This document shows positions 3,567 through 54,201 of a stretch of 58,085 nucleotides of DNA, piece by piece. The DNA is from a virus: the IMG/VR virus record IMGVR_UViG_3300043398_000262, positions 1 through 58,085 of that record. One strand, written 5' to 3'. The translations under genes were made by a program, and so were the position numbers. The notes below the pieces were generated by a model, which had not been told where the DNA came from, did not search any database, and was given only the letters and a program-made list of their open reading frames with translations. Position 1 is the first letter of the stretch, and every line of letters starts with the position of its first letter.

Positions 3567-4307
3567 TTAAGATTGAGCCGTCAACTTTTTCTTGGCGGCT
3601 TTAGTCTTAGCTATGGCTGCTACTCGCTTGGCTACATGCTCTGGATTTTGAGGACGTCCGACTAGTGACGCTACACGCTTCTTGGCAACATCTGGTGGAA
3701 CTATACGGCCTCTAGCCTTTGCGGCTATTTTTTCTCTGGTTTCGAGGCTGCGCTTGCTGCCTAAGTGCCTAGCCACTACTTTAGCTATCGTCTCAGGGGT
3801 TTGTTTGCGGCCAGTGCCTGCTGCAGCCAGTTTGGCTTTGTGTTCGGGCGAGAGCGGCCTGCCCTTGTTCACGGCAAGTGCGGCCGCTCTTACGTGCTCG
3901 GGTATTTTCTTTCCTTTGTTGGCGGCCTTGATTTTTGCTTTGGTTGCGTCGGACATGCGCCTACCTAAGGCCTTAGCAGACATTTTGGCAAGAATCTCGG
4001 GCGGGTGCACATATCCAGCGGACCCCTCGCCCCCGCCCGTGCGGTTGTAACCGTAAGGCGCTCTACATTCGAGTACGTAGATTGCGTGCATCTCTGCCTG
4101 AAATGCTTCCTGCTCTGAGATGTCTTTCGTTAGGAACCGAAGCTCGAACGCAGCTACGCCATGCTTGCGAATTGCGACACTTAGAATGGACTTCCTAAGA
4201 GCAGAATCTCTCAGGTGAGCGTAGGCTCGGTCTCCCTTGCCCTTGCCGACATACTGCTTTCCGTTAATTCTATTCGTCCAGCAGTAGACGTAGAAGCTAT
4301 TATCCAT
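3567..4307 (-). CDS. GIY-YIG homing endonuclease with NUMOD3-type repeats
   Basis: 246 aa. The N-terminal nuclease domain starts FYVYCWTN...KQYVGKG, the GIY-YIG core in variant form, followed by a conserved R/H stretch and the acidic end of the domain (EMHAIYVLE). From about residue 100 there are repeated basic segments (for example SPEHKAKLAAAGTGR, TPETIAKVVARHLGS, NPEHVAKRVAAIAKT) typical of NUMOD3 DNA-binding modules of mobile endonucleases. The gene overlaps the end of the primase-helicase gene by 8 bases. No intron is evident, so it appears free-standing. It probably cleaves intron-less alleles of a neighbouring gene to spread itself. Confidence 0.9.
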   Translation of the reverse strand: MDNSFYVYCWTNRINGKQYVGKGKGDRAYAHLRDSALRKSILSVAIRKHGVAAFELRFLTKDISEQEAFQAEMHAIYVLECRAPYGYNRTGGGEGSAGYVHPPEILAKMSAKALGRRMSDATKAKIKAANKGKKIPEHVRAAALAVNKGRPLSPEHKAKLAAAGTGRKQTPETIAKVVARHLGSKRSLETREKIAAKARGRIVPPDVAKKRVASLVGRPQNPEHVAKRVAAIAKTKAAKKKLTAQS

Positions 4308-7131
4308 GGCGCTCTACCGTAGCCCACGAAAACTCCTTGTCCAACAGCTCTTGACGTTGCGCCGACAGACCTAGCCATAAATCGAAGGCTTCGCCGATTG
4401 GCGGGAAGGCAAGCTCAATCAACGGTTCTCCAGAGGCAATCAATACTTGAACATCATCTTTGGAGCGCCAAAACCACGCATACTCTAGTAGGGCAGACTG
4501 CGTCTCATTATCTTCCTGTGTGAACAGTTCGCTGATGTTATCCTGCGTCCAGGAACTTGGGGCAACATCCCCCTCAACCATCACTGAACAAGATTTGGTT
4601 CGCCTAGGCAGCCTAAGGCGCCCTTGGGCTTGCTCCAGCTCGTTTGCGGCACATTGCACCCATTCAATGTCAGCGGCTTCTCCCACCAGTCCCAGCTGAA
4701 ATAGCGTTGGCTTCAGCGCGAACCGTGGCGTGCCAAACATGTACGCAACCGAGCATTCAGTGGCGCTGCCTTGCTGCCACTGGTTCAGACCGCGCAACGC
4801 TCCGTAGTGTGCCACCTGGACTAATCCGCCACGCAGCCGTACCGGGTCGTTTCTTAGCGCTTCTGCGATAGCGCGGAACGTCACGAACAACACCCTGGGT
4901 GGGTCGTATTGCTGAGCTTCTTCTAGGGCTCGCTCCAACGCTGCATCGACCAACGGCCACGGTATCCCGATTGGCTCTCCTGGCTGCGCCTCGCGTCGCA
5001 CACGGCGGCCCGACGTCTCATCCCAGTAGCTGGTGGTCAGTGCCTTGGAGCCACGACCACCGCGCAGAATCATCACACGCTTGACAGGCGCGCCGTCGGT
5101 GACCGAACAGCTGCGTACAGCAAACCCAGGTAACGCAGCCATCATCGGCGTAGCCGACAGCAACACGCCTTTGCGGGCCACCAACTGCTCGTGACAGGCA
5201 TCAGGCATCATCGCCTGTAGTGGCGTGTGCCCGCGATGCTGTAGCCCTTCTACGGGCTCACCGTCGGCAATACGGGCACCCAGCCGCACAACAGCATCAG
5301 CAGCCCTCAGCAGCTCGGCTTCTGCTGCTGAAGGCCTGGAGTCCTCGCGGACTGACAAACGACGCCACTCACCAGCAAGTGCGATTGCGTTACCCAGCGG
5401 CGTTCCTTCGGGGCCCCAGACAATTTCTCCTGGTTCGGTACCGGTCGACCAGGCGCGTGCCAACTCGCGCACTACTTTGGCGATGGTGGCTGGCGCTGAC
5501 GGCAGCTCTGCCGTCACTAGTGCCTGCAGTTGGTTTGGCGTAACCTGAACTTGCTCATAGGTGCCTGGCATCTCGTCAACAATCAGCTCGATTCCCAAAC
5601 CCTTGTCTTTGCCATCAGCGTCCAGCCCGAACACCTGGTTGATGCCAGCGTGTGAGACAAAAATTACGTTGGCGCTAGCCAAGGAACGTTGGCGTTCTTT
5701 AGCAGCAGCGTAAGCTTCACATTCTTGCCTAAGCGGGCAGCGTGGGCAAATCTTACCCAACAGAGACACGCCGAACTCGAATACCTGCGATTTCAGTTCG
5801 TTGGCGCGGCCGCACACTGGCTCACTGCCGACTTGAATTAGCGGGCTATGCTGGTGCACAGAGCGTGCATAGACGTCTGGCGGCAGATACTGGCGTGTAT
5901 CGTGTGCGACTTCGTGCGTTTGCGTGCAGTAGGCAATCTTGTAGCCGGCTCTGGCGCGCTCTGTAAGAATTATGGCAGCGCTATGACTTTTTCCGACTCC
6001 AGCCGGGTAGTGTATGACAGTCGGCTCTCGGCTAAGAACTGCGTCTCGGATGTCGTCCACTAGCGACAATACGGCCTGGGAGACCGGTACCGACAGCTTG
6101 GGCGAAGCCTGGCGCTGAAGCTGCTCCTCTAGCCGAACCTGGAGCTCGCTGGGGGCACCAAATCGCCCTTGGTCGTCCAGACCCAACGCGGCCAAAATCT
6201 CGCCACGTCGGCAGCTGGCAAAGCATACGACATCGATACCGTTGCCGCTGGCTCGAACGCGAAAACTAGGGGATTTCTGAATACCGTCCGGAGCGCAAGC
6301 TGGACACGGCCCGCGGCGCCAGCCCTCAAAGGCTTCGGCACCCAGCGAGATGCCACGTTGATTGAACACCTTGGTGATGTCCCGTAGAGCTCCTACGGCT
6401 TCGGCCGTCGGCTGCTGATACGGGCGCTGACGTCGACTCGATACCTGGGCGGTAGTCGGGCGACGCAGGATTGCCTCGACATCCAGCGGCCTGCCTGGTC
6501 GAACGTCGAACACAGCCAAATGCGCGCGCTCTGGCGGTGTGCACGGTACGTACCAGCTCTGGGCTGGACGTGCGCTGGCCGGGTCAAATCCACGAGGCTT
6601 AGCCGCTCGCTCTATACCGCTGGCCGTCTCTACGAACCGGCCCAGTACTTCGGCGCGGTATTTTGGGTCATCAACCGGTACTTCGTGGCCGAACAGAGCG
6701 GGCACGAGCACTCGATATTCGTCTGGGGTAACCGGCTTGTCGAACGGTAAGCAGATGCGGTACGCGTCATAAGGGCCACGGGTCCCAGAGTCTGAGTGGG
6801 TTTTGTTTTCATCTCGGTGGCTCCAGCTCGAGTATACGATGAACGCGAGCCCCAAGCCGTCCATGTGGGCTACCGCTGCCTCCAAGTCGCCTATGTCAGC
6901 GCAATCCTTGTCTAGGACGGCCGCATGCAGACACTCCAAGCCAGCCAAGCCACGATTAGCCCCAATACGGTATTCGGCTGCGGCCCACAACTGAACGCTG
7001 TCCTTTGACGGCGCCACCAACTCAGGGAACACAGATTCGACGCCTTCTAGCGTCCAAGGGACGTCGAAAGAGCGGTCTACTTTGGACCCGTGTTTGCCCA
7101 ACGCTTGGAACAAAACGCCCTTGAAGCGCAA
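4300..7131 (-). CDS. Primase-polymerase-like / zinc / iron-sulphur-type helicase fusion (943 aa)
   Basis: A multidomain replication protein. Residues ~50-150 resemble an archaeo-eukaryotic primase (prim-pol) core: LDKDC with a DxD at 74-76, a downstream SWSH, and RICLPFDKPVTPDEY. Residues 276-307 hold a zinc finger (C276, C279, C303, C307) like those of phage primases. A helicase follows: Walker A at 378-382 (GVGKS), four cysteines (C440, C462, C465, C471) spaced like the iron-sulphur domain of XPD/DinG helicases, a DEMP box at 519-522, LLSATPM, and a late QxxGRxRxP motif. Known families imply primer synthesis and unwinding at the fork. The enzyme lies between dCMP deaminase and a homing endonuclease. 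The helicase call is firm; the prim-pol and Fe-S calls rest on motifs only. Confidence 0.8.
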   Translation of the reverse strand: MRFKGVLFQALGKHGSKVDRSFDVPWTLEGVESVFPELVAPSKDSVQLWAAAEYRIGANRGLAGLECLHAAVLDKDCADIGDLEAAVAHMDGLGLAFIVYSSWSHRDENKTHSDSGTRGPYDAYRICLPFDKPVTPDEYRVLVPALFGHEVPVDDPKYRAEVLGRFVETASGIERAAKPRGFDPASARPAQSWYVPCTPPERAHLAVFDVRPGRPLDVEAILRRPTTAQVSSRRQRPYQQPTAEAVGALRDITKVFNQRGISLGAEAFEGWRRGPCPACAPDGIQKSPSFRVRASGNGIDVVCFASCRRGEILAALGLDDQGRFGAPSELQVRLEEQLQRQASPKLSVPVSQAVLSLVDDIRDAVLSREPTVIHYPAGVGKSHSAAIILTERARAGYKIAYCTQTHEVAHDTRQYLPPDVYARSVHQHSPLIQVGSEPVCGRANELKSQVFEFGVSLLGKICPRCPLRQECEAYAAAKERQRSLASANVIFVSHAGINQVFGLDADGKDKGLGIELIVDEMPGTYEQVQVTPNQLQALVTAELPSAPATIAKVVRELARAWSTGTEPGEIVWGPEGTPLGNAIALAGEWRRLSVREDSRPSAAEAELLRAADAVVRLGARIADGEPVEGLQHRGHTPLQAMMPDACHEQLVARKGVLLSATPMMAALPGFAVRSCSVTDGAPVKRVMILRGGRGSKALTTSYWDETSGRRVRREAQPGEPIGIPWPLVDAALERALEEAQQYDPPRVLFVTFRAIAEALRNDPVRLRGGLVQVAHYGALRGLNQWQQGSATECSVAYMFGTPRFALKPTLFQLGLVGEAADIEWVQCAANELEQAQGRLRLPRRTKSCSVMVEGDVAPSSWTQDNISELFTQEDNETQSALLEYAWFWRSKDDVQVLIASGEPLIELAFPPIGEAFDLWLGLSAQRQELLDKEFSWATVERHG

Positions 7132-7136
7132 GACAT

Positions 7137-7556
7137 CTACTCCTGATGAACGACGGCCACACCGTGCTTCTTCAGCATATCCAGCGGCGCTGGGTCACGG
7201 TACTGAACACCGTACACGACTGAGACGATGCCAGCCACAACCAACAGCTTGGCACATGCGGCGCATGGTGAGTGCGTACAGTAGCAAGTGGCTCCCGTAA
7301 TAGCCACCCCGCGCCTAGAAGCGAAACAGATTGCGTTGGCCTCTGCATGCGCCACTTGGCAGCCTCCGTGTGGACCAATATCGCAGCCAGCATCCAGGCA
7401 GTGCGGTGCACCTGGTAAGGCGCCGTTGTATCCACTGACCAGCAGCTGGTTGTCGGCCACTAGAACACAACCAACCCGAAGGCGCTTACAGGTAGACCGC
7501 GTAGCGGCTAGCTGCGCCATGCCTAGCCAGTACTCAGACCAACTAGGCCGGGTCAT
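7137..7556 (-). CDS. Deoxycytidylate (dCMP) deaminase
   Basis: 139 aa, the usual length for phage dCMP deaminases. Zinc and catalytic residues are visible: H70-A-E72 (HAEANA) and P97-C98-x-x-C101 (SPCAACAK). An N-terminal substrate segment, SGYNGALPGAPHC, also matches the family. It converts dCMP to dUMP and so feeds dTTP synthesis. No thymidylate synthase is seen in the window. It is expressed just before the primase-helicase in the early operon. The gene runs from a TGATG junction with the preceding small membrane protein gene. Confidence 0.93.
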   Translation of the reverse strand: MTRPSWSEYWLGMAQLAATRSTCKRLRVGCVLVADNQLLVSGYNGALPGAPHCLDAGCDIGPHGGCQVAHAEANAICFASRRGVAITGATCYCTHSPCAACAKLLVVAGIVSVVYGVQYRDPAPLDMLKKHGVAVVHQE

Positions 7557-11636: not shown

Positions 11637-13043
11637 CTACTTGGCCACGAACTTGGTTCGAACACCCAAAGCTGCGGCTTCGGCATCGACAGCAGCGCAC
11701 AGCTTGGACGCAAACGTGGTCAAGTCAGTCGGGTTTGATGAGCCGATGGTGATACCGTCGTGGCTGTGTATCGCGACATAGCCTAAGTCGCACACCAGCC
11801 GTGCTTCCTCGTAAGCACGCGCCATCAGCCGTAGCTCATATGTCGAGGCGATGAAGTGCGCCAACGTTGACGGGTTCATGTTGCCGAGCTGGGTCGGGAC
11901 GCCGTACGCATCCACCAGATGCCCCATGCGCTTGGCGCGCTGGGCGATGGCTTTACAGGTTGCTCGTAGTTCCTTGGCTAGCGGACTGCGGCTGATGGTC
12001 GAGGCCAGCTCAGACGGGACGTTGTTGGCGACCAATAGCTGAATCATCTTCTGTGCTCTGGCGCCATACATTTGGCTATAGACGGCTTCTTTCAACTGGT
12101 CTTTGTCCAAAGCCGTCCCAGCGTTCAGCAGCTTGATTACCTGGGGCCATACCGAACCATCTGTGGACTCTAGAACGATATCCAGCATGGGCGTCTCCAG
12201 CGCCAAGCGACGGCAGATGACCTGGTGAATTGCCAGATGAGCAGCTCGCAAGTCCAGGTCTACCCAGTCGGGGCGTAGAATGCGGCGCATGGCGCTGGGC
12301 ATTAGCTGCCAGCCTGTATTGGCGTCTCCTAGCCTGGAGGTGTGACGATTGGCAGCTGGGCTGTACCAGGGTAGTTGCCCGTCTTTGCAGGACTGTACCT
12401 GGGCCCCTAGACGCATCAGCGTGACGATGTTCGTATCGGAGTTGTCTGGGTATTGCTGTTCAGCCCAATCCTGAGCAGCGTCGATGTTGTGGGTTTCTAG
12501 GATGTAGTTGCTGGTCCGAGCATGGCGCTTGAAGTAATCCAGTATCCACTTCTGGTCTTGGATGAAGGTAGGTGTTCGTTCTGGCATGGCGTAATTGCCT
12601 CTGGGAAGACCAGTTTTGATATGGACGTCGGAATCGGCCTGAGACCAGCGGCGTCGTGACCTTAGTTTGTACGCAGAAGCCAACGATTTCAACGTGATTG
12701 CTCTGGTTTTGTTGCCGGAGTCGAATGGGCCGTTGAACTGGTAATCGAGCACCTGCTCGCCTTTGGCGGCTGCGTACTGCTGGAGCCAGTCAGCATTGTC
12801 CAGCGTCTGTTTCGCGTTGGCTTTGTGATGCCCCAGGCGACATTGGTTGATGACTTGGTAGGATACTGGGGCCGTTGGTTCACCATCTAGTCGTTCATCC
12901 TCCAGCCGGAAGTGGCCTCGTAGTGCGAAGCTCTCCAAGGCGGCGTAATCGTCGCTAGGGTTCTCGAGCAACAGCTCAGCTCGGACGTCTGGGGCAACAA
13001 ACATCCAATGTGGCTGAGCGGGCAACTTGTCTGGAGGTGACAT
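11637..13043 (-). CDS. Compact second family A-type polymerase (468 aa)
   Basis: The C-terminal two thirds carry family A polymerase landmarks in order. T235-S-R-L ... W-Q-L-M-P249 corresponds to the TGRLSS..PNLQNIP segment. Motif A is WVDLD264LRAAH269L, where the usual Glu five residues after the Asp is His. Motif B is K318-x3-Y322-x3-Y326-G327, matching K/F/Y/G of the O-helix, with K314 at the Arg position. Motif C is H428-D429-G430 in place of HDE. There is no 3'-5' exonuclease domain; the N-terminal ~230 residues are unrecognised. A full replicative polymerase is encoded at 49527-51434, so this is an extra enzyme: possibly a primase, a translesion or terminal polymerase, or a divergent single-subunit RNA polymerase. 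It reads away from the repeat-rich non-coding region at 13044-13823; a TATAGT hexamer lies 9 bases upstream of its ATG. Confidence 0.72.
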   Translation of the reverse strand: MSPPDKLPAQPHWMFVAPDVRAELLLENPSDDYAALESFALRGHFRLEDERLDGEPTAPVSYQVINQCRLGHHKANAKQTLDNADWLQQYAAAKGEQVLDYQFNGPFDSGNKTRAITLKSLASAYKLRSRRRWSQADSDVHIKTGLPRGNYAMPERTPTFIQDQKWILDYFKRHARTSNYILETHNIDAAQDWAEQQYPDNSDTNIVTLMRLGAQVQSCKDGQLPWYSPAANRHTSRLGDANTGWQLMPSAMRRILRPDWVDLDLRAAHLAIHQVICRRLALETPMLDIVLESTDGSVWPQVIKLLNAGTALDKDQLKEAVYSQMYGARAQKMIQLLVANNVPSELASTISRSPLAKELRATCKAIAQRAKRMGHLVDAYGVPTQLGNMNPSTLAHFIASTYELRLMARAYEEARLVCDLGYVAIHSHDGITIGSSNPTDLTTFASKLCAAVDAEAAALGVRTKFVAK

Positions 13044-13184
13044 TAGTCAGAAACTATAGCAGCACCTAGAGCTAGCCGTGGACAACTAAAGACGCCAAAG
13101 AACACTCTCTGAATAAGGCGGCCCCGCCAAGGCTACACACCTCATATAACTACGCGTACTTAGGTGGTCTGTAAACCTGAGTAT

Positions 13185-13200
13185 TGAGAACGCATTCTCA
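13185..13200. repeat. Small palindrome TGAGAA-CGCA-TTCTCA
   Basis: Perfect 6-bp arms around a 4-base centre, within the non-coding control region upstream of the second polymerase gene. Could be an operator; no other copy was noticed. Confidence 0.3.
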
Positions 13201-13282
13201 TCGACTAATCTGTCGTCTTGTTCATCTAGACTACCTCAGCGCACCTCGGTTGCTTTCTACCTAAATTCACCCCTAGAAGACT

Positions 13283-13334
13283 CTTAGTTCGCTTTTTCCT
13301 AACCGGTTCTTAGTTCGCTTTTTCCTAACCGGTT
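13283..13334. repeat. Perfect tandem duplication of a 26-bp unit
   Basis: Copies at 13283-13308 and 13309-13334 are identical. Each contains TTCGCTTTTTCCTAACC and ends in the palindrome AACCGGTT. The unit looks like an iteron, or a pair of protein-binding sites two to three helical turns apart, and is the clearest origin-like element in the window. Confidence 0.75.
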
Positions 13335-13431
13335 CATAAGACGCCCCCTAGCGCGCAAGTGCAACAGTACCCTGGTGATGGCCGATAACGACGGCTTATC
13401 GCTCGCTAGGCTCGCGATGTTCGCTCCTACG

Positions 13432-13477
13432 GAGCTCACCACGGCTTCGCTACGCTCCAGCCGCTATCGGTGAGCTC
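13432..13477. repeat. Inverted repeat with 9-bp arms
   Basis: GAGCTCACC at 13432-13440 pairs with GGTGAGCTC at 13469-13477 around a 28-base loop that is itself GC-rich. It may fold as a stem in RNA or single-stranded DNA. Confidence 0.5.
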
Positions 13478-13686
13478 GGGCGCCAGCCGACCCCATACCC
13501 CCCGGCCGCTGCCGGCTTTGAGCCGATATGAATACGGTTCCGAAAAATCTGTCTCTGCCGACTAGATGGCATATACTACCCATGCGTACATTACTTGTAC
13601 CGTAAATGCCCGTTGTCGCCGGCTAGCCAACGATGTGCAGATTTTGCACGTAGCCGCTGTAATGACGACTTGGCTCATCAGCGGAA

Positions 13687-13707
13687 CAACACCCCAATGG
13701 GGTGTTG
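13687..13707. repeat. 21-bp near-perfect palindrome
   Basis: Ten-base arms (CAACACCCCA / TGGGGTGTTG) surround a single A at 13697. The sequence GGCCAGTTATATTTT follows, so it could act as an operator or, as RNA, as a short stem with a weak U-rich tail (terminator-like). Confidence 0.5.
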
Positions 13708-13725
13708 GCCAGTTATATTTTCTTA

Positions 13726-13745
13726 GTGTGACACTTCTGTCACAC
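13726..13745. promoter_or_regulatory. Operator-like palindrome GTGTGAC-N6-GTCACAC
   Basis: Perfect 7-bp arms with a 6-base spacer. A second site with the same half-site TGTGAC and the same spacer length lies 41 bases downstream (centre to centre), about four helical turns. Together they resemble paired binding sites for a dimeric regulator controlling the operon at 13824. Confidence 0.6.
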
Positions 13746-13767
13746 CTGGACCTTAGCCTGCAGGCAC

Positions 13768-13785
13768 TGTGACGCCGCTGTCACA
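13768..13785. promoter_or_regulatory. Second operator-like palindrome TGTGAC-N6-GTCACA
   Basis: Perfect 6-bp arms identical to those of the site at 13727-13744, with a different 6-base spacer (GCCGCT against ACTTCT). Conservation of the arms but not the spacer is typical of protein-binding sites. Confidence 0.6.
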
Positions 13786-13823
13786 CCGGGCTAGGAGCCG
13801 TCCTGAACCGTCAACATGGCTGG

Positions 13824-14228
13824 ATGGCAGCCGACGACGATACGACGGTCTATGAGCGCTCAATAGCCGACCTACGCCAAGCGTTCCGAGCTATCGACCT
13901 GGTGTTCTTTGGCGGCGCCTGCGGGCTGGATGGAGTGCGCATCAGGTGGCGTCGGTACGTCAAACGCAAGGATGAGTTTCTCTGGGGTCAGTACTTTCCC
14001 GACACCAAGCATATCGAGATAAACGACAGGCTAAGAGAGCACGATGTTCCAGATTACGTTCTGCTACACATCATACATCATGAGTGCTTGCATCACGTAA
14101 TCTCGTTTGACCATGACACCAAGTTCAACGAAGCCGAGTCGCGCTACCCGTGGCATTGGAAAGCCGAGAAATGGGAAGACGAGTTCATGCTGGCGATGGG
14201 AAAGCCTGTTACGCTGAAATTATGCTGA
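13824..14228 (+). CDS. SprT/YgjP-like zinc metallopeptidase (134 aa)
   Basis: H86-E87-C-L-H90 is an HExxH zinc and catalytic motif in the context IIHHECLHHVISFDHDTKF. A further His (H97) and an acidic helix with the ending SRYPW match the small gluzincin-like proteins of the SprT and YgjP (DUF45) groups. Upstream, WGQYFPDTKHIEIND also fits the beta-strand that precedes the active helix. No signal peptide, so it acts in the cytoplasm, possibly on a host or DNA-crosslinked protein. It is the first gene after the operator-like palindromes. The start at 13824 is uncertain, with no clear Shine-Dalgarno. Confidence 0.75.
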   Translation: MAADDDTTVYERSIADLRQAFRAIDLVFFGGACGLDGVRIRWRRYVKRKDEFLWGQYFPDTKHIEINDRLREHDVPDYVLLHIIHHECLHHVISFDHDTKFNEAESRYPWHWKAEKWEDEFMLAMGKPVTLKLC

Positions 14229-40101: not shown

Positions 40102-40821
40102 TTAGACTCCTGGAGGAACCCACACTGCCGACTTACCGATGCCGCGCACTACCCAGCCTGCGGCTTCTAAAGCTCTAGTTAGAGTCTTAGCGCACATTTT
40201 GTGAGCTTTGGCGTGTTTCCATGCATTGTCGCCTTTGAACGAAGTGACTGCGGCGGCGATGCGAGGTGCGTGCTTAGCACGCATTGCAAGACTACGGGCA
40301 AGACGACAAGCCTCAGACGGTACCCTGCCAACCTGGGCTGCCGAAATCTTGGCCTTCCATTCAGGGGTCTTAGATGCCAAGACGCTTTCTCTGATACGCC
40401 GCTTAGCTTCTGGAGACCTAGCTAAAGCTGCACGTGACATGTTAGCGCGGGCTTCATCTGACCGCGTTGCCCCTAGGTTGGCCCGCCGTAGTTTCTCGGT
40501 ACGCTCAGGTGATGAGACGTAGCCTGACAAGCCGTCTCCACCATCCGTAAGATTGTAGCCCCAACGTCTACAATCGTAGGCCTGAATAGCTGCCACCTCC
40601 AGAGCCACAGCCAACGTCTCGTCTAGACCTAGTGCCAAGTACTGCAGACTGAAGCTATCACGCCCGTATTTGCGGATAGCAGCATAGAACGCCGGGCATT
40701 GAACTCCACCCTTCTCAGCCCACCTCAGATGACAACCGGCCCTGCCTTTTACCCCTTTACCGACATATTTTTTCTTGTTGGTTAGATTGGTCCACACGTA
40801 AACGTAGAAGTCATTCCGCAT
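40102..40821 (-). CDS. GIY-YIG homing endonuclease with NUMOD3-type repeats
   Basis: 239 aa. N-terminal nuclease: FYVYVWTN...KKYVGKG (GIY-YIG variant), R27-type Arg in KGRAG, and EVAAIQAYD. The middle has repeated basic SPE(R/A)xxKL and SDEARANMSRAALARSP segments; C-terminal KMCAKTLTRALEAAGWVVRGIG forms a small winged or helix-turn-helix. It resembles the protein at 3567-4307. A TATAAT hexamer overlaps its start codon. It lies between tail/terminase and tailspike genes. Confidence 0.9.
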   Translation of the reverse strand: MRNDFYVYVWTNLTNKKKYVGKGVKGRAGCHLRWAEKGGVQCPAFYAAIRKYGRDSFSLQYLALGLDETLAVALEVAAIQAYDCRRWGYNLTDGGDGLSGYVSSPERTEKLRRANLGATRSDEARANMSRAALARSPEAKRRIRESVLASKTPEWKAKISAAQVGRVPSEACRLARSLAMRAKHAPRIAAAVTSFKGDNAWKHAKAHKMCAKTLTRALEAAGWVVRGIGKSAVWVPPGV

Positions 40822-46175: not shown

Positions 46176-46613
46176 ATGGTGAACGGCGATTCAGATACCC
46201 CCAGCTGGCTGGCCCGCGCCAGACGCGAACTAGGCGTGCGTGAAGGTAAGGACGATACACGTATTCTGCAGTACCACCAATGCACAGGGCTCAAAGCCCG
46301 CAGCTCAAAGGTCCCTTGGTGCGCCAGTTATGTGTGTTTTTGCTTGGAGCAAGAAGGCGTCAAGTCGACGCGTTCAGCGGCTGCCGCCAGCTACAAGATG
46401 TTCGGCAAAGAGTCCGAAGTACGTCCAGGGGCGATTATCGTATTTGGGCCCAAAGACTTAGACTCCGGACACACAGGCCACGTCGGGTTCGTTAACGCGA
46501 CCCCTAAAGGTCTATATGTACAAGTCGTCTCGGGGAATCAAAATAATAGAGTGACCCTTAAAAACTATAGAATATCTGATGCCGTTGCAATTCGTTGGCC
46601 GGAGTTTCCTTAG
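46176..46613 (+). CDS. Endolysin, CHAP/NlpC-like cysteine peptidase (145 aa)
   Basis: AGGAG precedes the ATG. The sequence follows the TIGR02594-type plan: WLARARRELGVREG, then VPWC49ASYVCFCLE with the nucleophile, GAIIVFG, then TGH102VGFV and an ASN-like position (SGN121). These form the Cys-His-Asn active site of peptidoglycan amidase/endopeptidases. Without a signal peptide, it depends on a holin. Gene order holin-like, endolysin supports this. Confidence 0.85.
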   Translation: MVNGDSDTPSWLARARRELGVREGKDDTRILQYHQCTGLKARSSKVPWCASYVCFCLEQEGVKSTRSAAAASYKMFGKESEVRPGAIIVFGPKDLDSGHTGHVGFVNATPKGLYVQVVSGNQNNRVTLKNYRISDAVAIRWPEFP

Positions 46614-47566
46614 TGGCACAAGTCTACTTAGTGACCTGTTTACCGACCGGTAAACGTTATGTCGGGTTCACTTCGCGGTGCTTTAAGGAACGCTGGGCGC
46701 GGCACAAGCTAGATGCCAAGAAAGGTTCTGGCTATCTGTTGCATCGCGCCATACGCAAGCACGGCGAGGCGAACTTCACAGTTCGTTTGCTGCTTGAGTG
46801 CACAGAATCTGATTTGGCTCTAAAGATGGAGAAGTTATGCATTTCTGAGCTAGATAGCCTTGCGCCTTCAGGACTGAATTTAGCTTCTGGCGGTCAGCGC
46901 CCTGAATGGCACCCTAGCTCTAGAGCAAAAATAGGGGCCAGGACTAAAGCCAACTGGCGCAAGACTTCATACAGGAATAAAATCCTGGCAGCTAGAGCGA
47001 CTCCAGAGGATAGGGGTCGCGCCAGAGCCGCGAATTTGGCGGCGCAGGGCAACCCTGAACTACGAAAACGAATCGCGGAAAAGCTGAAGGCGCTATCAGC
47101 CACTCCTGAAGTGCGTGAACGCCTTAGTAAGCAAGCCACAATGGCCTGGGCGTCTGCTGTCTACAAAACCCGGCAGGCGGAAGGTTTGCGCAAACACTAC
47201 GCCGACCCTGCGATTCGCCTGGCCGCATCGATTAGAGCAAAGCAGGCTTGCACCTCTACGCTTCGGCAAAAACTGTCAGAAAGTCACGGAGTCTCCGCTG
47301 CAACCAGAGAAGCTATAGTTGCCCAATTAGCAGATGGCGCCAAGCCGCAAGTCGTAGCAAAGGCTCTAGATATTTCACCCGGTGTGGTCTTGAGATGGGG
47401 TCGAGAGTACGGCGTTTACCCACCTGCTAAACCGCGGCGTAACCTACGCCCAAGTATAGAGACGCTGCTCTCTGAAGGCCTCAAGCAAGCCGAAGTATGC
47501 AGGAAACTATCTGTAGCCCCTGGCTACGTATCTAGAGTGGCAGCAGCCATGAGAGGGGCACCATGA
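46613..47566 (+). CDS. GIY-YIG homing endonuclease with two C-terminal helix-turn-helix motifs
   Basis: 317 aa from GTG 46613, which overlaps the endolysin stop (a TTG 18 bases upstream is less likely). Nuclease VYLVTCLPTGKRYVGFT...RCFKERW. A lysine/alanine-rich middle (SPLKALSATPEVRERLSKQ-like) corresponds to NUMOD-type binding. At ~255-280 and ~290-315 two resolvase-like HTH units (VAQLADGAKPQVVAKALDI, LLSEGLKQAEVCRKLSVA) occur. It adjoins the endolysin, the likely homing neighbour. Confidence 0.88.
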   Translation: MAQVYLVTCLPTGKRYVGFTSRCFKERWARHKLDAKKGSGYLLHRAIRKHGEANFTVRLLLECTESDLALKMEKLCISELDSLAPSGLNLASGGQRPEWHPSSRAKIGARTKANWRKTSYRNKILAARATPEDRGRARAANLAAQGNPELRKRIAEKLKALSATPEVRERLSKQATMAWASAVYKTRQAEGLRKHYADPAIRLAASIRAKQACTSTLRQKLSESHGVSAATREAIVAQLADGAKPQVVAKALDISPGVVLRWGREYGVYPPAKPRRNLRPSIETLLSEGLKQAEVCRKLSVAPGYVSRVAAAMRGAP

Positions 47567-48398: not shown

Positions 48399-48901
48399 TA
48401 TTTCGACTTCCTTTTGCGTGCCTGCTTGATTGTACGTGGCCTGCGGCGCGCCGTCACTGCCTTTTTGCGACCTGATTTGGCTTGGCGCTTCTCCATTTTG
48501 CGTTCGTGCGCCAGACGGTATTTCTCGGCTTCCTTGGGTGTGAGCTCCTGGAGCACTTCGACGGTGATACGCGTCCGTGGAGACGCCTTGTCATAGTGAC
48601 GAGTTGCCTCCATCTCGGTGACCATAACGTCGTCAAAGAAGGCGGCTCCGTTCAACCCATCGAGGGCCGCCTTGCAATAGTTATCCACGTCGCCAAATCT
48701 ACGCGAACCGCAGAAGAATGCCATCGTGACTCGATACACGGCAGCCATCGGCCAACCGTCTTCTCTAGCCTGGGAACACGCTTCGTTGATGCGCATCTCC
48801 TGGTCTATGGTCTTCTGTGGTGTGAATACACGTCCACCCCTACCTAGGCGTGGTCTCTGTTTGACTGCTGGCTCCCCAGCTACTACGAAGCTTAGTCTCA
48901 T
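48398..48901 (-). CDS. rusA: RusA-type Holliday junction resolvase
   Basis: 167 aa. RusA acidic and basic residues are in register: D71, D73 and N74 with K77 (GDVDNYCKAALDGLNGAAFFDD), D81 and D90/D91. It would cut four-way DNA junctions symmetrically before packaging. The C-terminal tail is unusually basic (KRQAKSGRKKAVTARRR). Overlaps the next gene by ATGA and the previous by TAATG. A long basic C-terminus is additional to the core RusA fold. Confidence 0.92.
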   Translation of the reverse strand: MRLSFVVAGEPAVKQRPRLGRGGRVFTPQKTIDQEMRINEACSQAREDGWPMAAVYRVTMAFFCGSRRFGDVDNYCKAALDGLNGAAFFDDVMVTEMEATRHYDKASPRTRITVEVLQELTPKEAEKYRLAHERKMEKRQAKSGRKKAVTARRRPRTIKQARKRKSK

Positions 48902-49530
48902 ACGCGGCCACCAACGATTTCATAGACACTGCTTGTCGACAACTCAACCCAGGACGCTACGTCAGCGACTGTGGCGCCTAGAGCTCGCAACATTCGCACC
49001 GTTTCAGCGTGTCTTGTCATCTTGTTGCGCTTCTGTCGTTTGCCAACGTCCCCCTGAATTTCGTTAGGGTTAGCAAAGCTGCCGTGCAAAGCTACAGCCG
49101 CCCTGTCGTAGGCTGCCGCTGCGTCCTCCTTTGTCGGGAAGTGCCCCAGCGCGTATTTGACCTTGTTGAATTGAATCTGGGCTATCCAGCTGTTGCACTT
49201 GGCGGACCAATGCACCCCTTTGATTCCTGACTTGCTGGACAGGTATGCAGGCTTGTTGCAATTGTTCCCTGTCCTATCACTGACGCGTAGATTCTCTCTG
49301 CGGTTGTCTAGGCCATCACCGTTGATGTGGTCAATTTCCACCTTGGGGTCAGTCACTCCTAGTACCACTCTGTGCAGTCTGGCAGGTTTCCCAAACATCC
49401 TGCCGCACATGGCGTATCGAGTTCGCATCCCGGGACGCGCCCAAGAGCACCAAGTGAAGTCTTTGACTTGCTCGAAAACGTCATCATCCACCAGGGCCAC
49501 ACGTCCGCAAGATAGCTTTAGCTCTTTCAC
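48898..49530 (-). CDS. HNH homing endonuclease with AP2 and HTH (210 aa)
   Basis: HNH core LHRVVLGVTDPKVEIDHING...NRRENLRV, then an AP2-like module (SGIKGVHWSAKCNSWIAQI). The C-terminal 30 residues (MLRALGATVADVASWVELSTS in part) form an extra HTH not seen in its paralogues at 25847 and 53695. It overlaps the polymerase start by four bases (ATGA), so it appears inserted between polymerase and RusA genes. Confidence 0.9.
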   Translation of the reverse strand: MKELKLSCGRVALVDDDVFEQVKDFTWCSWARPGMRTRYAMCGRMFGKPARLHRVVLGVTDPKVEIDHINGDGLDNRRENLRVSDRTGNNCNKPAYLSSKSGIKGVHWSAKCNSWIAQIQFNKVKYALGHFPTKEDAAAAYDRAAVALHGSFANPNEIQGDVGKRQKRNKMTRHAETVRMLRALGATVADVASWVELSTSSVYEIVGGRV

Positions 49531-51434
49531 TTTCTAAGCTCCCAAGGTATTAGCACCCCGTTCTCGTATACTGGGTCAGAAGCGGCTTTTGTCCAGCGCA
49601 ACATGGCTGATGGTTCTGCAGTCATCGGAACCTCCTTCACTACTGAATCCGCCCCAGAACAGAACAAATCTCGGATGTGGTGAGACTTTTCATGCAGACC
49701 CTCTAAAGGTACTTCTCCAAGCCATTCGTCGTGAAGCCACCCCTGCATACGGCAGCCGTAGACAGGAGATTCTGGGTCTGCATAGCAGGCATACATGACC
49801 TTTACGAAGCCTGCTTTGCCTGCGTCTGCAGCTAAACCCTGGAATAACGAGTTAGCGAATTCACAGTAGGACACGTCCCCCCGGACGCGTTGCGAGACGA
49901 AGTGCGTTACTTCCCCCCTAGCTCCACGCCTGCCTAGTTGGTCCGCGACCCACTCAAGGTACGGGGCTGCCTCTCTCCACTTCCTTTTCCAGGCCGCGAT
50001 TACTTCGGCTGCTCTGGCTTCGGTTATTTTGACTCCGTAGGTGGTAGCTGCGTACTCTATGAACGTCTTCTTACCCAACCCACCTGGCAGTCCGAAGCCG
50101 GCTGCCTTGGCTAGTTGCCGGAGTTCCTTGAACTTGGGCTTGTCCGTTTTCTTGAGTGCATACGCTTCATCGACGCTCAACCCATAAATCAACGCCCCCA
50201 GCTCGACGTGGGGGTCTCTGGCAGGGTCCTTCAGAACTTCTCCCAGGTCAGAAAAGTCAAAGAGCCACTTGCACACAGCTGCCCACGTTCTAAGCTCCGC
50301 TTGGTTGAAGTCGATACTCACAAAGGCGTACCCGGGTCGTGCCACGAAGCATTCGCGTACACCTTCGGCTCTCGGCGGATTCTGTATCTGGCATACATAC
50401 GCGCTATACGGCTGTCCAGGCTTCGGGTCATCGCCTTGGCGACATGACGTTCGGCCAGTAGCCACCAACGTGTTCATCGACGGTTGAATCAATGGGTGTT
50501 GAAGACGCTTGATTTTGCTTAGAAGAGTGTTTGCTTGCCCATAGCGGGTGTAGGCCGCCAGGATTTCATCCTCGGCTCCCAGACACGCCTCTTCGTCGAG
50601 CTTGACGTTCCCCGGCTTGCCGGCGGCCAGCATCTTCTCTGTTGGCTCTCCGCGTGGCTCAGACTTGCCCAGGCGCCTATAGGCGTCCACCAGCATCTGC
50701 TCAGCCTTGGCTTTGTCCTTAGAGCAAGAGCCGTCTGGCTTGAACTTCAGCAGTCCAGCTTGTGCCAGGACTTTGCGGTCCAGCTCAATCTCTGTCACTG
50801 TGGCGTCGTACAGCTTGCTTGCTGCGACTGGGTCTGTCCTGAGACCCCATGCACTAGACAGCGCCAGTGCTACGGCTGCCTCCACCTGTGGGTGCTCGTT
50901 GACGAACCAGCGGTCTCCCTGGGCTGCCTGGGCTCGCCACAGGTCGCGTACGGCGATATCCCCCTTGGCATAGTCGACTGCCTCTTGGGGCCATTGCTCG
51001 ACGTCCAGCCCATATAGAGAGCCAAACCGCACCCGCCAGGAGCACTGCTTGTCCAGCTTGATGGGGATACCGTGCGCCTCGAGGCAGTCATCCAGACCAA
51101 AGCCCTCACGCCGGTCGCCCTTGCCGATCCTCAGGAGCTTTTCGCGCAGCATCGTACAGCTGAAACCGCCTGCCTTCAACTTGGCGAACACCAACGGACG
51201 CCAGTCGACACTATGTGCCAGCATGGTCAGGATTTCGTAGGACGCGTTGTGGGCGACTATTTGTACCTGTGGGTCCTTGAGGGCCTCTGTCAACAGCTTG
51301 CCCAGACGTCCATCGCGTACGTGCCACAGCTCCGTGGGGGCATCGTCGATGGCGAACGACATGCACACCAACGGAGGAGCCTGTAGGCCAGGAGCTGTTA
51401 GAAACGTCTCAAAATCAACCCACAGCTTAGTCAT
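49527..51434 (-). CDS. DNA polymerase I family (family A) replicative polymerase
   Basis: 635 aa. 3'-5' exonuclease residues: D7-x-E9, H62-N63, and Y155-x3-D159. Polymerase residues: TGRTS (326-330), motif A D375-FNQA-E380, motif B K443-x3-F447-G-L-P-G-G, and motif C H568-D569-E570. The variant motif B with PGG is typical of many phage polymerases. It would copy the genome. A second, shorter relative without exonuclease lies at 11637-13043. Confidence 0.95.
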   Translation of the reverse strand: MTKLWVDFETFLTAPGLQAPPLVCMSFAIDDAPTELWHVRDGRLGKLLTEALKDPQVQIVAHNASYEILTMLAHSVDWRPLVFAKLKAGGFSCTMLREKLLRIGKGDRREGFGLDDCLEAHGIPIKLDKQCSWRVRFGSLYGLDVEQWPQEAVDYAKGDIAVRDLWRAQAAQGDRWFVNEHPQVEAAVALALSSAWGLRTDPVAASKLYDATVTEIELDRKVLAQAGLLKFKPDGSCSKDKAKAEQMLVDAYRRLGKSEPRGEPTEKMLAAGKPGNVKLDEEACLGAEDEILAAYTRYGQANTLLSKIKRLQHPLIQPSMNTLVATGRTSCRQGDDPKPGQPYSAYVCQIQNPPRAEGVRECFVARPGYAFVSIDFNQAELRTWAAVCKWLFDFSDLGEVLKDPARDPHVELGALIYGLSVDEAYALKKTDKPKFKELRQLAKAAGFGLPGGLGKKTFIEYAATTYGVKITEARAAEVIAAWKRKWREAAPYLEWVADQLGRRGARGEVTHFVSQRVRGDVSYCEFANSLFQGLAADAGKAGFVKVMYACYADPESPVYGCRMQGWLHDEWLGEVPLEGLHEKSHHIRDLFCSGADSVVKEVPMTAEPSAMLRWTKAASDPVYENGVLIPWELRK

Positions 51435-51442
51435 TCATGTAC

Positions 51443-51994
51443 CTATAAATATTCAGCCAGCCTATCGACCAGGTACAAAACCTCTGCATAGTCAACAGCT
51501 CTGAAGGCATTCTGTCCCTCGGCATTCCGATTCCACGGCCGGTCAAGCAGAATACCGACTCCACCAGCGTCTACGAACGCCTGGACGTTATCGGGGTGGT
51601 CATCAATCAGAACGTCGCCACGCACCAGTGCCTTGTCCGACGCAAAGACGATTTGCCTACTAGTAAACCTACGGTCGCGTAACCACTGAGCACGTTCGTA
51701 GCACCAACGTGGTGTATTCGCTGGACTCGTAACTGCTACAACCTGCCCGCGAGTTCTTAGCGCCTCTAGAAACACCATGGCGCCTGGGTACTCCTCTAGC
51801 CTAGAGACGACGTCAGGACGCTCAATTAGGTGCCAGACTTGGGCGTCTTCCTCTGGGCTGGCCACGGACTTCGAGAAGTCCCACGTAGTGACTTCGTCTT
51901 CAGAGTGAATGCGTCCGGTCAATACCACTAGACATTCCAGATACGTCTGAGCGAACCGACAAATAACGCCGTCGATGTCTAGCAGAATTCTCAC
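51443..51994 (-). CDS. 5'(3')-deoxyribonucleotidase-like HAD hydrolase
   Basis: 183 aa. HAD motif I D6-x-D8 (LLDIDGV), motif II VAVTSPAN, and motif IV LIDDHPDN (~126-133). These and the length match the small HAD family of deoxyribonucleotidases. It would dephosphorylate deoxynucleotides and adjust the pool with the dCMP deaminase. Overlaps the next gene start (ATGA). Confidence 0.8.
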   Translation of the reverse strand: MRILLDIDGVICRFAQTYLECLVVLTGRIHSEDEVTTWDFSKSVASPEEDAQVWHLIERPDVVSRLEEYPGAMVFLEALRTRGQVVAVTSPANTPRWCYERAQWLRDRRFTSRQIVFASDKALVRGDVLIDDHPDNVQAFVDAGGVGILLDRPWNRNAEGQNAFRAVDYAEVLYLVDRLAEYL

Positions 51995-52326
51995 TTGGGC
52001 TCCTTCAAGGCGCGTCGTCCCCAGGCCTTGATGTCAAACCACAGCACGAATAGCGTGTTGGTGGCCAGATGAGCAGCCACCAAATATCCGCTTTCATCAT
52101 CCCACACCTTGCCGTCAAGTAGCTCGGCCCAGTGGCGACCAGCAGCCGCTACGTACGTGTCTCGGGTGAACGGCAGCCGCTGCCAGCTGCGTGGCTCGTG
52201 CTTCTTGGCGCCGAACGTCAGAATCTCGGCAATCGCCACCAGCGGCTCGCCTGGGAGCAAGTCCATCCTGGGCTTCTCAGCCTTGGCGGCTGCGGTCTGA
52301 ATCACGTGGTCGGACGCCGTGCTCAT
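51991..52326 (-). CDS. dATP/dGTP diphosphohydrolase-like protein (DUF5664 type)
   Basis: 111 aa. KPRMDLLPGEPLVAIAEI, FGAKKHEPRSW, AAGRHWAELLDG and ESGYLVAAHLATNTLF follow the helical MazG-like pattern of DUF5664, in which a H/E pair is proposed to bind metal. It probably hydrolyses dNTPs. Overlaps both neighbours. Homologues are widespread in phages, and some are linked to base-modification pathways; that link is not shown here. Confidence 0.7.
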   Translation of the reverse strand: MSTASDHVIQTAAAKAEKPRMDLLPGEPLVAIAEILTFGAKKHEPRSWQRLPFTRDTYVAAAGRHWAELLDGKVWDDESGYLVAAHLATNTLFVLWFDIKAWGRRALKEPK

Positions 52327-52841
52327 TTCTGTCTCCAGGTCAAGGCTTCTTTTACTAGGACGGGAGCGGCTCTGTCGCCATCTACAACTAGGTGAATGCG
52401 TTGCATTATGCTGGCGTGCATCCGCCGGCCGATTTCGTCGGCTTCAGTTTCAGACTGAGACCGCCCATAAGCCGCATACGGCTTGGTCCTGCGAACCCAG
52501 ACGTTGAAGTTGTCGTAAAAATCGAACAGTCGCGAGATGTGCCCGCGATATTCGTCGCTATCGTACACCCCTCGGACGTAGAACAGCGATTTCAGCAGGG
52601 GCGCGTCAGTAAGTATGTAGTCTACCTGGCCCACTAGGCGTCGCAGCCGACGGTCTTGTTCCGCCAGCATGAACATCTCATTTTCCATCGTCTGCCAAGC
52701 ACCGTCGTAAGTCAGCTCCTTGGCAAACTCTTCTACGACTTCGACTTTGAAGCCGGCCAACTTCATCTCGAAAAACAGACCTGCCTTGGTTGTGGATTTA
52801 CCCGCACCTGGACCTGCGAAAAAATTGACGACTACAGTCAT
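52323..52841 (-). CDS. P-loop nucleoside/nucleotide kinase-like protein (172 aa)
   Basis: From ATG 52841 (ATGA overlap), with Walker A G10-P-G-A-G-K-S-T (AAA_28/NadR-type). ILTDAPLLKS is the Walker B-like strand. It fits small phage kinases predicted to phosphorylate nucleosides or nucleotides. Operon partners are nucleotidase, diphosphohydrolase and phosphoesterase. Confidence 0.75.
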   Translation of the reverse strand: MTVVVNFFAGPGAGKSTTKAGLFFEMKLAGFKVEVVEEFAKELTYDGAWQTMENEMFMLAEQDRRLRRLVGQVDYILTDAPLLKSLFYVRGVYDSDEYRGHISRLFDFYDNFNVWVRRTKPYAAYGRSQSETEADEIGRRMHASIMQRIHLVVDGDRAAPVLVKEALTWRQK

Positions 52842-53662
52842 CGGATGGCTCTCGAGACTTGGGCAAGCATAGACTCGCCGCTTACAATCGGGACGTTGAT
52901 ATGGATGAACCGGCCGGACTTCGAAACTACCTCCAGCCCGTAGCCGTGCGCCCACTGAGAGACGTTTGTGTGCATATACAGCGGCTGAATACGAGCCAGC
53001 GTGCCGGGCGACCACGCGCCGAACAGACCCTTGTCGACTGACCTGCCGTGAACGCTGACAGCACGATGGATATGCCCGAAAACAACGTTTGCGCCGAACT
53101 TACTCAGGTGCACAGCAGCTGCGTGTGCCGAGGCACTTAGCCCATGCGTCACGTACACCGACGTTCCGCCAACGGTCAGTTTCAGCGTACCTGGGATACT
53201 GCAGCCCGGCATGAACTCGTTACGCTCAATGTAGCGAATACCGCGCGTCTTCAACTTCAGCGCCGCGGCGGGGCCCATAGCCGCCAAGTAGCTATCGGCG
53301 TCTTTCTTGTTGAAGAAAGTGGATGTAGCCCATTTCTCTACCCGAAATTCGTGGTTCCCAGCCACGTACCAAATACGTGCCTTGGGTGCCGCCTTGTGGA
53401 TTGCGTCCAGAAATTTGTTGGTGAACGCGACATCGTCTTCGTAAGACTCAGCCATTTCGTTGGTATATGACCGACTGTGCGTCGTAAAAATACCGCCACA
53501 ATCTAAATGGTCGCCCAGCATGACGATTTCGTCAGGAGCCAACCGCTTCAAGTCGGCTAAGAACGCAGCTTCTGCTGCTGGGTCGATATGAGCGCCATGG
53601 CTGTCAGGAATGAACACCCTGGTGACGTCTTTCGATTGAACTGCTTTTGCTCTAGTCGCCAA
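52838..53662 (-). CDS. Metallophosphoesterase (274 aa)
   Basis: Motifs DSHGAH (~19-24), GDHLD, GNHE (~102) and GHIHR (~203) are the calcineurin-like dinuclear metal site. Substrate unknown: could be a nuclease of the Mre11/SbcD type or a phosphatase. Next to a P-loop kinase; the pairing of kinase and phosphatase recalls end-repair modules but is not proved. Confidence 0.85.
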   Translation of the reverse strand: MATRAKAVQSKDVTRVFIPDSHGAHIDPAAEAAFLADLKRLAPDEIVMLGDHLDCGGIFTTHSRSYTNEMAESYEDDVAFTNKFLDAIHKAAPKARIWYVAGNHEFRVEKWATSTFFNKKDADSYLAAMGPAAALKLKTRGIRYIERNEFMPGCSIPGTLKLTVGGTSVYVTHGLSASAHAAAVHLSKFGANVVFGHIHRAVSVHGRSVDKGLFGAWSPGTLARIQPLYMHTNVSQWAHGYGLEVVSKSGRFIHINVPIVSGESMLAQVSRAIR

Positions 53663-53694: not shown

Positions 53695-54201
53695 TTATGG
53701 TGACACGCCACGACTCTTGGGCCAGCTAGTTCTGGCGAAACTGCCGTGCAAAGCTTTTCTCGCCTCACGAACAGCTGCAATAGCGTCGTCTTTGTTCTCA
53801 AAGTACCCGACAAAGACCCGTTTTCCTTTGAACCCAACGCGGGCGAGCCATTTGCCGTACAGCGGGAACCAGCAAACACCCTTTTCGCCTGAAGTATTGT
53901 TCTTAGGAGCGCCTTTGTTCCAGACATTCTCGGCATTAGAACAGAGCCGCAGATTCTCTCTGCTGTTGTTAAGCCCATTGCCGTCTATGTGGTCAACTTG
54001 CAGACCCTTAGGCGCATTTAGTAGGAATCGGTGAAGATACTGGGTAGAGTCTCTGCCGTTTACCCTAATGTGCCGCAAAACATAGGCTGAGTATTTATTA
54101 GGCTTCTTTTCCAGATGCCAAGGGCCCGCTTCTTTGACTGCCTCTAAGTCAGCGTCATCCACGATGACCACGAAGCCTGAACGTATTTCGAAGCTAGCCA
54201 T
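53695..54201 (-). CDS. HNH homing endonuclease with AP2-type domain (168 aa)
   Basis: Core LHRFLLNAPKGLQVDHIDGNGLNNSRENLRL in pieces, then AP2-like SGEKGVCWFPLYGKWLARV. Closely follows the plan of those at 25847 and 48898, without the extra HTH. It lies between the phosphoesterase gene and a zinc-HTH gene. Mobile element. Confidence 0.9.
   Translation of the reverse strand: MASFEIRSGFVVIVDDADLEAVKEAGPWHLEKKPNKYSAYVLRHIRVNGRDSTQYLHRFLLNAPKGLQVDHIDGNGLNNSRENLRLCSNAENVWNKGAPKNNTSGEKGVCWFPLYGKWLARVGFKGKRVFVGYFENKDDAIAAVREARKALHGSFARTSWPKSRGVSP

Follow-up and report, generated by a model that had tools for sequence, protein, structure and literature searches.

The locus and its genomic setting

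Does a phage with a complete family A DNA polymerase encode a second, degenerate-looking enzyme of the same kind, and what would such an enzyme do? The question is raised by a single leftward gene, P0001, in the analysed window, which is an entire IMG/VR virus record (58,085 bp). A preliminary description made from the sequence had proposed that P0001 is a compact, exonuclease-less family A polymerase, encoded in addition to a full one at 49.5–51.4 kb. The full enzyme is indeed present: P0002 combines an exonuclease with a family A polymerase and is presumed to be the replicative polymerase. The open reading frame of P0001 is also real, with a coding score of 0.20 as against -0.30 in the wrong frames and a codon usage like that of the other phage genes. 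The features considered here are collected in Table 1.

The ends of the record carry a 24-nt direct repeat (1–24 and 58062–58085, one mismatch), and when they are joined the frame of a helicase-like gene (56193–58043) runs on across the junction. The genome is therefore probably circular or circularly permuted, and complete although the record is linear. When it is read as a circle, the leftward genes (48.9–58.1 kb, then 0.3–13.0 kb) make up a single block beginning at 13.0 kb, and P0001 is the first gene of this replication and metabolism block. A rightward block containing the head, portal and terminase genes runs from 13.8 kb. Its first gene (13824–14228, + strand) encodes a 134-residue protein with a metallopeptidase-like HExxH motif (HHECLHH).

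The intergenic region between the divergent blocks is a possible control region or origin. P0001 had been described as starting directly at a repeat-rich, origin-like region; it does adjoin this divergent region, but the region is not strongly repeat-rich, containing a 26-nt repeat in a single tandem pair together with two palindromes. The palindromes, which are 41 nt apart and precede the rightward block, are CRP-like and operator-like. Consensus searches of the intergenic region returned neither sigma-70 promoters nor terminators.

Several other genes of the phage concern replication and nucleotide supply. Residues 57–146 of the candidate primase/helicase P0003 share 33% identity with the 'putative primase' of Pseudomonas phages KPP23/RSP, a weak match (E 9e-3). 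A nucleotide metabolism set (7137–7556, 51443–51994, 51991–52326 and 52323–53015, all on the - strand) comprises a deoxycytidylate deaminase-like protein, an NT5C nucleotidase, the N-terminal domain of a dATP/dGTP diphosphohydrolase and a thymidylate kinase-like protein. The genome also carries five homing endonuclease genes, three GIY-YIG and two HNH (3567–4307 (-), 40102–40821 (-), 46595–47566 (+), 48898–49530 (-) and 53695–54201 (-)), one of them directly downstream of the P0002 gene. In motif B of P0002, PGG stands in place of Tyr-Gly (FGLPGGLG), as it also does in Manatee Spring phage MW202816.

Table 1 Features of the P0001 locus and of the related replication genes.
Feature	Position	Strand	Details or basis
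P0001, second polymerase gene	11637..13043	-	468 aa; ORF and coding score
P0001 N-terminal region, residues 1-230	12354..13043	-	no recognised domain
TGR equivalent, T235 S236 R237	12333..12341	-	hhalign global and MAFFT alignment
LQNIP/AQIP equivalent, Q246 L M P249	12297..12308	-	hhalign global alignment
Motif A, D264-L-R-A-A-H269 (favoured register; alternative catalytic D259)	12237..12254	-	hhalign; divPolA2 alignments
Motif B fingers helix, K314-D-Q-L-K318-E-A-V-Y322-S-Q-M-Y326-G327	12063..12104	-	profile score
Motif C, H428-D429-G430	11754..11762	-	sequence and hhalign global alignment
Intergenic region between divergent blocks	13044..13823		780 bp; layout
26-nt repeat, two perfect tandem copies, nowhere else in the genome	13282..13333		
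Two palindromes, TGTGAC-N6-GTCACA	13727-13744 and 13768-13785		sequence
P0002, normal family A DNA polymerase with 3'-5' exonuclease domain	49527..51434	-	PF00476 E 2.5e-13; PHROG 17 E 4.5e-50
P0003, candidate primase/helicase	4300..7131	-	943 aa; AEP primase-like VLDKD, YSSWSH; CHC2-like zinc finger; P-loop

Searches for homologues

Relatives of P0001 were sought with family models, sequence searches and motif patterns. The protein matches no family in Pfam, NCBIfam, PHROGs, PADLOC (hence no defence family) or PDB sequences; a direct comparison with PF00476 gave no match at E <= 10, and one with PF00940 gave no match. Viral, phage, plasmid and bacterial collections yielded no homologue, and neither did a related-locus search of viral and genome contigs, tblastn searches of phages and plasmids with the whole protein and its halves, nine related records, or relatives reached through the terminase, portal, capsid and normal polymerase. 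Degenerate motif patterns (four in viral contigs, one in genome contigs) retrieved ordinary polymerases or chance matches only. The pattern K-x2-[VI]-Y-x2-MYGA, taken from motif B of P0001, is selective for the family: about 116 of its 120 matches in viral contigs are family A polymerases.

The N-terminal region was searched separately. For residues 1–230, a Pfam scan gave nothing beyond a chance-level E of 0.14, and tblastn gave no phage match below E 4. Pfam and PHROGs scans thus name no domain in this region, in agreement with the earlier account of about 230 unrecognised N-terminal residues and an absent exonuclease. The region is a possible substitute for the thumb.

Fit to family A polymerases

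Similarity to family A was measured with a profile built from 63 DNA polymerases of that family, among them E. coli PolA, T7 gp5 and P0002, each trimmed to the part that runs from the TGR motif to its C-terminus. In a global hhalign alignment, residues 230–468 of P0001 score 26.37 with all motifs in register: TSR is paired with TGR, QxxP with its counterpart, D264 with D705, K318 with K758, Y322 with F762, Y326 with Y766 and H428-D429 with H881-D882. Plain shuffles score 2.89 +/- 2.17 (maximum 11.7). Since most of the profile sequences had been gathered by patterns drawn from P0001 itself, a control that keeps the motif B residues matters; 200 such shuffles score 3.12 +/- 2.30 (maximum 12.95), which places P0001 about ten standard deviations above them. 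None of 301 natural decoy windows reaches P0001, the highest (24.57) being a genuine T7-type RNA polymerase and the next scoring 15.4.

The local alignment is in register from motif B to beyond motif C, with an E of 4.4e-4 for a single comparison. Its score comes mostly from motif B and is equalled by 9 of the 200 motif-B-keeping shuffles, and with an earlier, smaller family A profile the score of P0001 lay within noise. The assignment to family A therefore rests on the collinear global fit. At the level of sequence, this fit supports a family A palm/fingers domain in the C-terminal half of P0001, and with P0002 present it bears out the proposal of a compact, exonuclease-less family A-type polymerase beside the replicative one.

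Structure prediction had been named in the preliminary description as a check on the fold. AlphaFold2 run without an alignment gave a useless model (pLDDT 35). A second run, guided by a 44-row alignment to family A polymerases, reached a pLDDT of 64.5 overall and about 70–86 across most of the stretch from motif B to C, and the best fold match of this model was T7 DNA polymerase (Foldseek E 3e-5; VIA-align Z 15.2, rmsd 4.2, 233 residues). Because the alignment came from the family that was then matched, the fit of the guided model to palm and fingers serves as a consistency check only.

Catalytic residues and the register of motif A

In family A enzymes, two Asp residues bind metal, a Lys of the fingers assists phosphoryl transfer, a Tyr of the fingers stacks the nucleotide and the Arg of the TGR motif contacts the template/primer. 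In E. coli PolA the steric gate is Glu710; when this residue is removed, sugar choice becomes relaxed. P0001 carries both Asp residues, the fingers Lys and Tyr and the TGR Arg. The superfamily A hairpin Arg that precedes the palm is present as R237, aligned with TGR by both hhalign and MAFFT, and its counterpart is E. coli PolA Arg668. The fingers signature [R/K]xxxK plus Tyr-Gly appears as K314xxxK318...Y326G327, with a motif B profile score of 21.3 bits at K318 and of -3.3 at the next best position. Of the palm Asp pair, D429 is certain, and its motif A partner is D264 or D259. The Glu residues of canonical family A enzymes are absent from both motif A and the HDE of motif C, H269 (or D264) and G430 standing instead, and the Asn/Gln of the QG helix is altered too. 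The motif positions given previously (TSRL 235, WQLMP 245–249, DLRAAH 264–269, K318/Y322/Y326/G327 and HDG 428–430) are right.

The choice between D264 and D259 depends on the alignment. With canonical polymerases, hhalign places D264 in motif A and H269 at the Glu position, whereas MAFFT selects D259, reading DWVDLDLR as DYSQIELR, so that D264 supplies an acid at the Glu position and the Arg is kept. The ungapped profile scores of the two registers are nearly equal. The diverged phage PolA proteins named divPolA2 (Yutin et al. 2024, PMC11348598) favour D264 at the motif level: in several of them motif A is D-[FY]-[KR]-A-x-H-P-[AS]-I, and hhalign and all three MAFFT modes align R237, Q246 and D264-L-R-A-A-H269-L-A-I of P0001 with them. 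Judged by these alignments, D264/H269 is quite probably the true register. The claim that motif A is D264 with a His five residues on thus stands as the better of two registers, but it is not certain, since MAFFT with canonical polymerases prefers D259. A lost steric gate, which depends on this register, is likewise no more than probable. As the steric-gate Glu seems to be His, sugar choice in P0001 may be less strict.

A His at this position occurs in other phage proteins. It is found in 6 of 11 divPolA2 proteins fetched, the others having Glu (four) or Trp (one). In the divPolA2 homologues L256, L257 and L259–L262, motif A reads D-[FY]-[KRS]-[AQS]-x-H-P-[ASR]-I, with His at the steric-gate position; the consulted text of the 2024 paper makes no mention of a His there (PMC11348598). 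Phage family A polymerases from IMG/VR (L051/L095) have the motif A DFSQEHLY/DYSQEHLY, again with His at +5, and HDS as motif C. An exonuclease-less polymerase-like protein of 476 aa (L080:2169-3389, L110:7210-8640) has DYDAFHLRL, with His at +5, followed by SNLYG and YDS; its gene adjoins baseplate-like genes of a contractile-tailed phage. Taken by itself, His at +5 is not unique to P0001. Since the residue recurs in divPolA2 and in two other phage polymerase groups, its effect on sugar choice is testable on several proteins at once.

Proposed function and alternatives

By computation, P0001 has a family A domain with the catalytic residues kept, lacks an exonuclease and coexists with a full PolA. 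The best explanation is a superfamily A polymerase that has diverged very far: its exonuclease has been lost, and an N-terminal domain peculiar to it stands where the exonuclease/thumb region would be. As to its role, we lean, with modest confidence, towards an accessory, non-proofreading DNA polymerase of superfamily A beside the normal PolA. In such an enzyme, D429 and the Asp of motif A (D264 or, with lower probability, D259) would hold two metal ions that join nucleotides; the incoming nucleotide would be acted on by K318 of the fingers helix, and the template/primer by R237. Synthesis is predicted to be primer-dependent and to proceed without proofreading. We infer that the protein is active, makes DNA and would serve gap filling, repair, recombination or the start of replication, the last near the 13.0–13.8 kb region.

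Other readings would explain parts of the same evidence. A chance resemblance, with P0001 adopting another fold, would agree with the failure of every family library and sequence search to find it and with the non-significant score against the smaller profile; it is highly improbable given the distance of the global score from the motif-B-keeping shuffles, the motifs all being in order and no decoy scoring as high. A family A-like protein that is decayed or has no catalytic activity, and that instead binds DNA or acts as a regulator of the replicative polymerase, would account for the extreme divergence and for the altered motif A Glu, HDE Glu and QG helix. We consider this improbable, because P0001 retains the metal-binding Asp pair, the fingers Lys, Tyr and Tyr-Gly, the TGR Arg and the motif C His, in an intact frame with normal coding usage. 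Equally improbable is a single-subunit RNA polymerase transcribing the phage genes, a role that the preliminary description had raised from the missing Glu residues. T7 RNA polymerase does belong to superfamily A, His and HDG replace the steric-gate Glu and HDE, and P0001 opens its block beside a divergent control region; such a role was also thought possible for divPolA2 by Yutin et al. (PMC11348598). However, a profile of 13 T7-type enzymes scores P0001 at 0.63 in global alignment, compared with 3.02 +/- 2.31 for shuffles, and on this fit a T7-type identity was rejected. Both the spacing of the motifs and the TSR and QxxP that precede motif A follow the pattern of DNA polymerases, and P0001, with 468 aa, is much shorter than the T7-type enzymes fetched in full length (about 805–883 aa). 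Dispersed repeats before genes, as phage promoters would be, are absent too: no 13-mer is present at least three times in the genome, although this is a weak test for a promoter family.

P0001 might instead make primers, or be a mixed primase-polymerase, and initiate replication at the control region next to it, a role that is possible but not favoured, and on balance unlikely. Some of the TV-Pols, predicted prim-pols (Iyer et al. 2008, PMC2579912), likewise combine a minimal superfamily A core with an N-terminal domain that is uncharacterised, the P0001 gene adjoins the divergent intergenic region with its repeats, and exclusion of ribonucleotides may have been lost. Against this, P0003 is a separate primase/helicase candidate, which makes a primase role for P0001 less likely, and no D5-type helicase was recognised next to P0001. 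Slightly less likely still is that P0001 forms its own superfamily A branch between canonical PolA (by motif B) and divPolA2 (by motif A), with a His at the sugar-selecting position, and uses both rNTPs and dNTPs, synthesising primers or strands of mixed RNA and DNA at the control region beside it. Of these readings, the accessory DNA polymerase has the best support.

Comparison with known polymerases

Canonical phage family A polymerases, of the T7 gp5 type and including P0002, share with P0001 the order and spacing of TGR, QxxP and motifs A, B and C, fit the same profile and provide the best fold match of the guided model. P0001 differs from them in lacking the exonuclease, the motif A Glu, the HDE Glu and the QG helix, in its low identity (10–22%) and in having no Pfam match. 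With T7-type RNA polymerases it shares the superfamily, a motif B of K-x2-V plus Tyr-Gly and an HD[S/G] without Glu, but it does not fit their profile, has the DNA polymerase-type TGR/QxxP and is much smaller. The likeness to TV-Pol, by description, lies in the minimal core and the N-terminal domain that some TV-Pols carry, and the difference in that no D5-type helicase was recognised beside P0001.

The closest parallel in layout is divPolA2, a diverged PolA that occurs beside a regular DNA polymerase; its palm looks active, an exonuclease is missing, and its N-terminal domain has no kinship with known domains (Yutin et al. 2024, PMC11348598). It is encoded by barbaviruses, ICP1-like phages and Aeromonas/Vibrio/Shewanella phages, its representative being AUR84708 in MG592441 (430 aa), and its proposed role is that of a repair polymerase or RNA polymerase (PMC11348598). 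P0001 is similar in size, likewise has an exonuclease-less palm with catalytic residues and its own N-terminal domain, and lies in a genome with a regular DNA polymerase; its DLRAAHLAI is similar to the divPolA2 form of motif A, D-[FYL]-[KR]-A-x-H-x-[AS]-I. However, P0001 keeps the Tyr-Gly of motif B where most fetched divPolA2 proteins have Asn-Ala/Gly/Cys, its motif C is HDG rather than HDS/HDA/FDE, and its partner polymerase is PolA rather than the PolB of barbaviruses. Similarity in sequence between the two is not significant (BLASTP E 2.2; hhalign local score 16.8, compared with 12.6 +/- 2.0 for shuffles; no HMMER match), and a full-length hhalign comparison gave no N-terminal alignment. 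Membership of P0001 in divPolA2 is accordingly not claimed. In view of this and of the motif B and C differences, P0001 is classed with the divergent polymerases of superfamily A, as one whose layout is like that of divPolA2.

Phages with a second, degenerate-looking PolA beside the replicative enzyme were reported only in 2024. Since an extra polymerase of a similar kind is thus on record from other phages, P0001 is a new, isolated variant, distant from those described, and does not make up a category of its own. With P0001, the range of such genes widens to a sequence that no current family model reaches, and to a small phage (58 kb) in which the regular polymerase is a PolA too.
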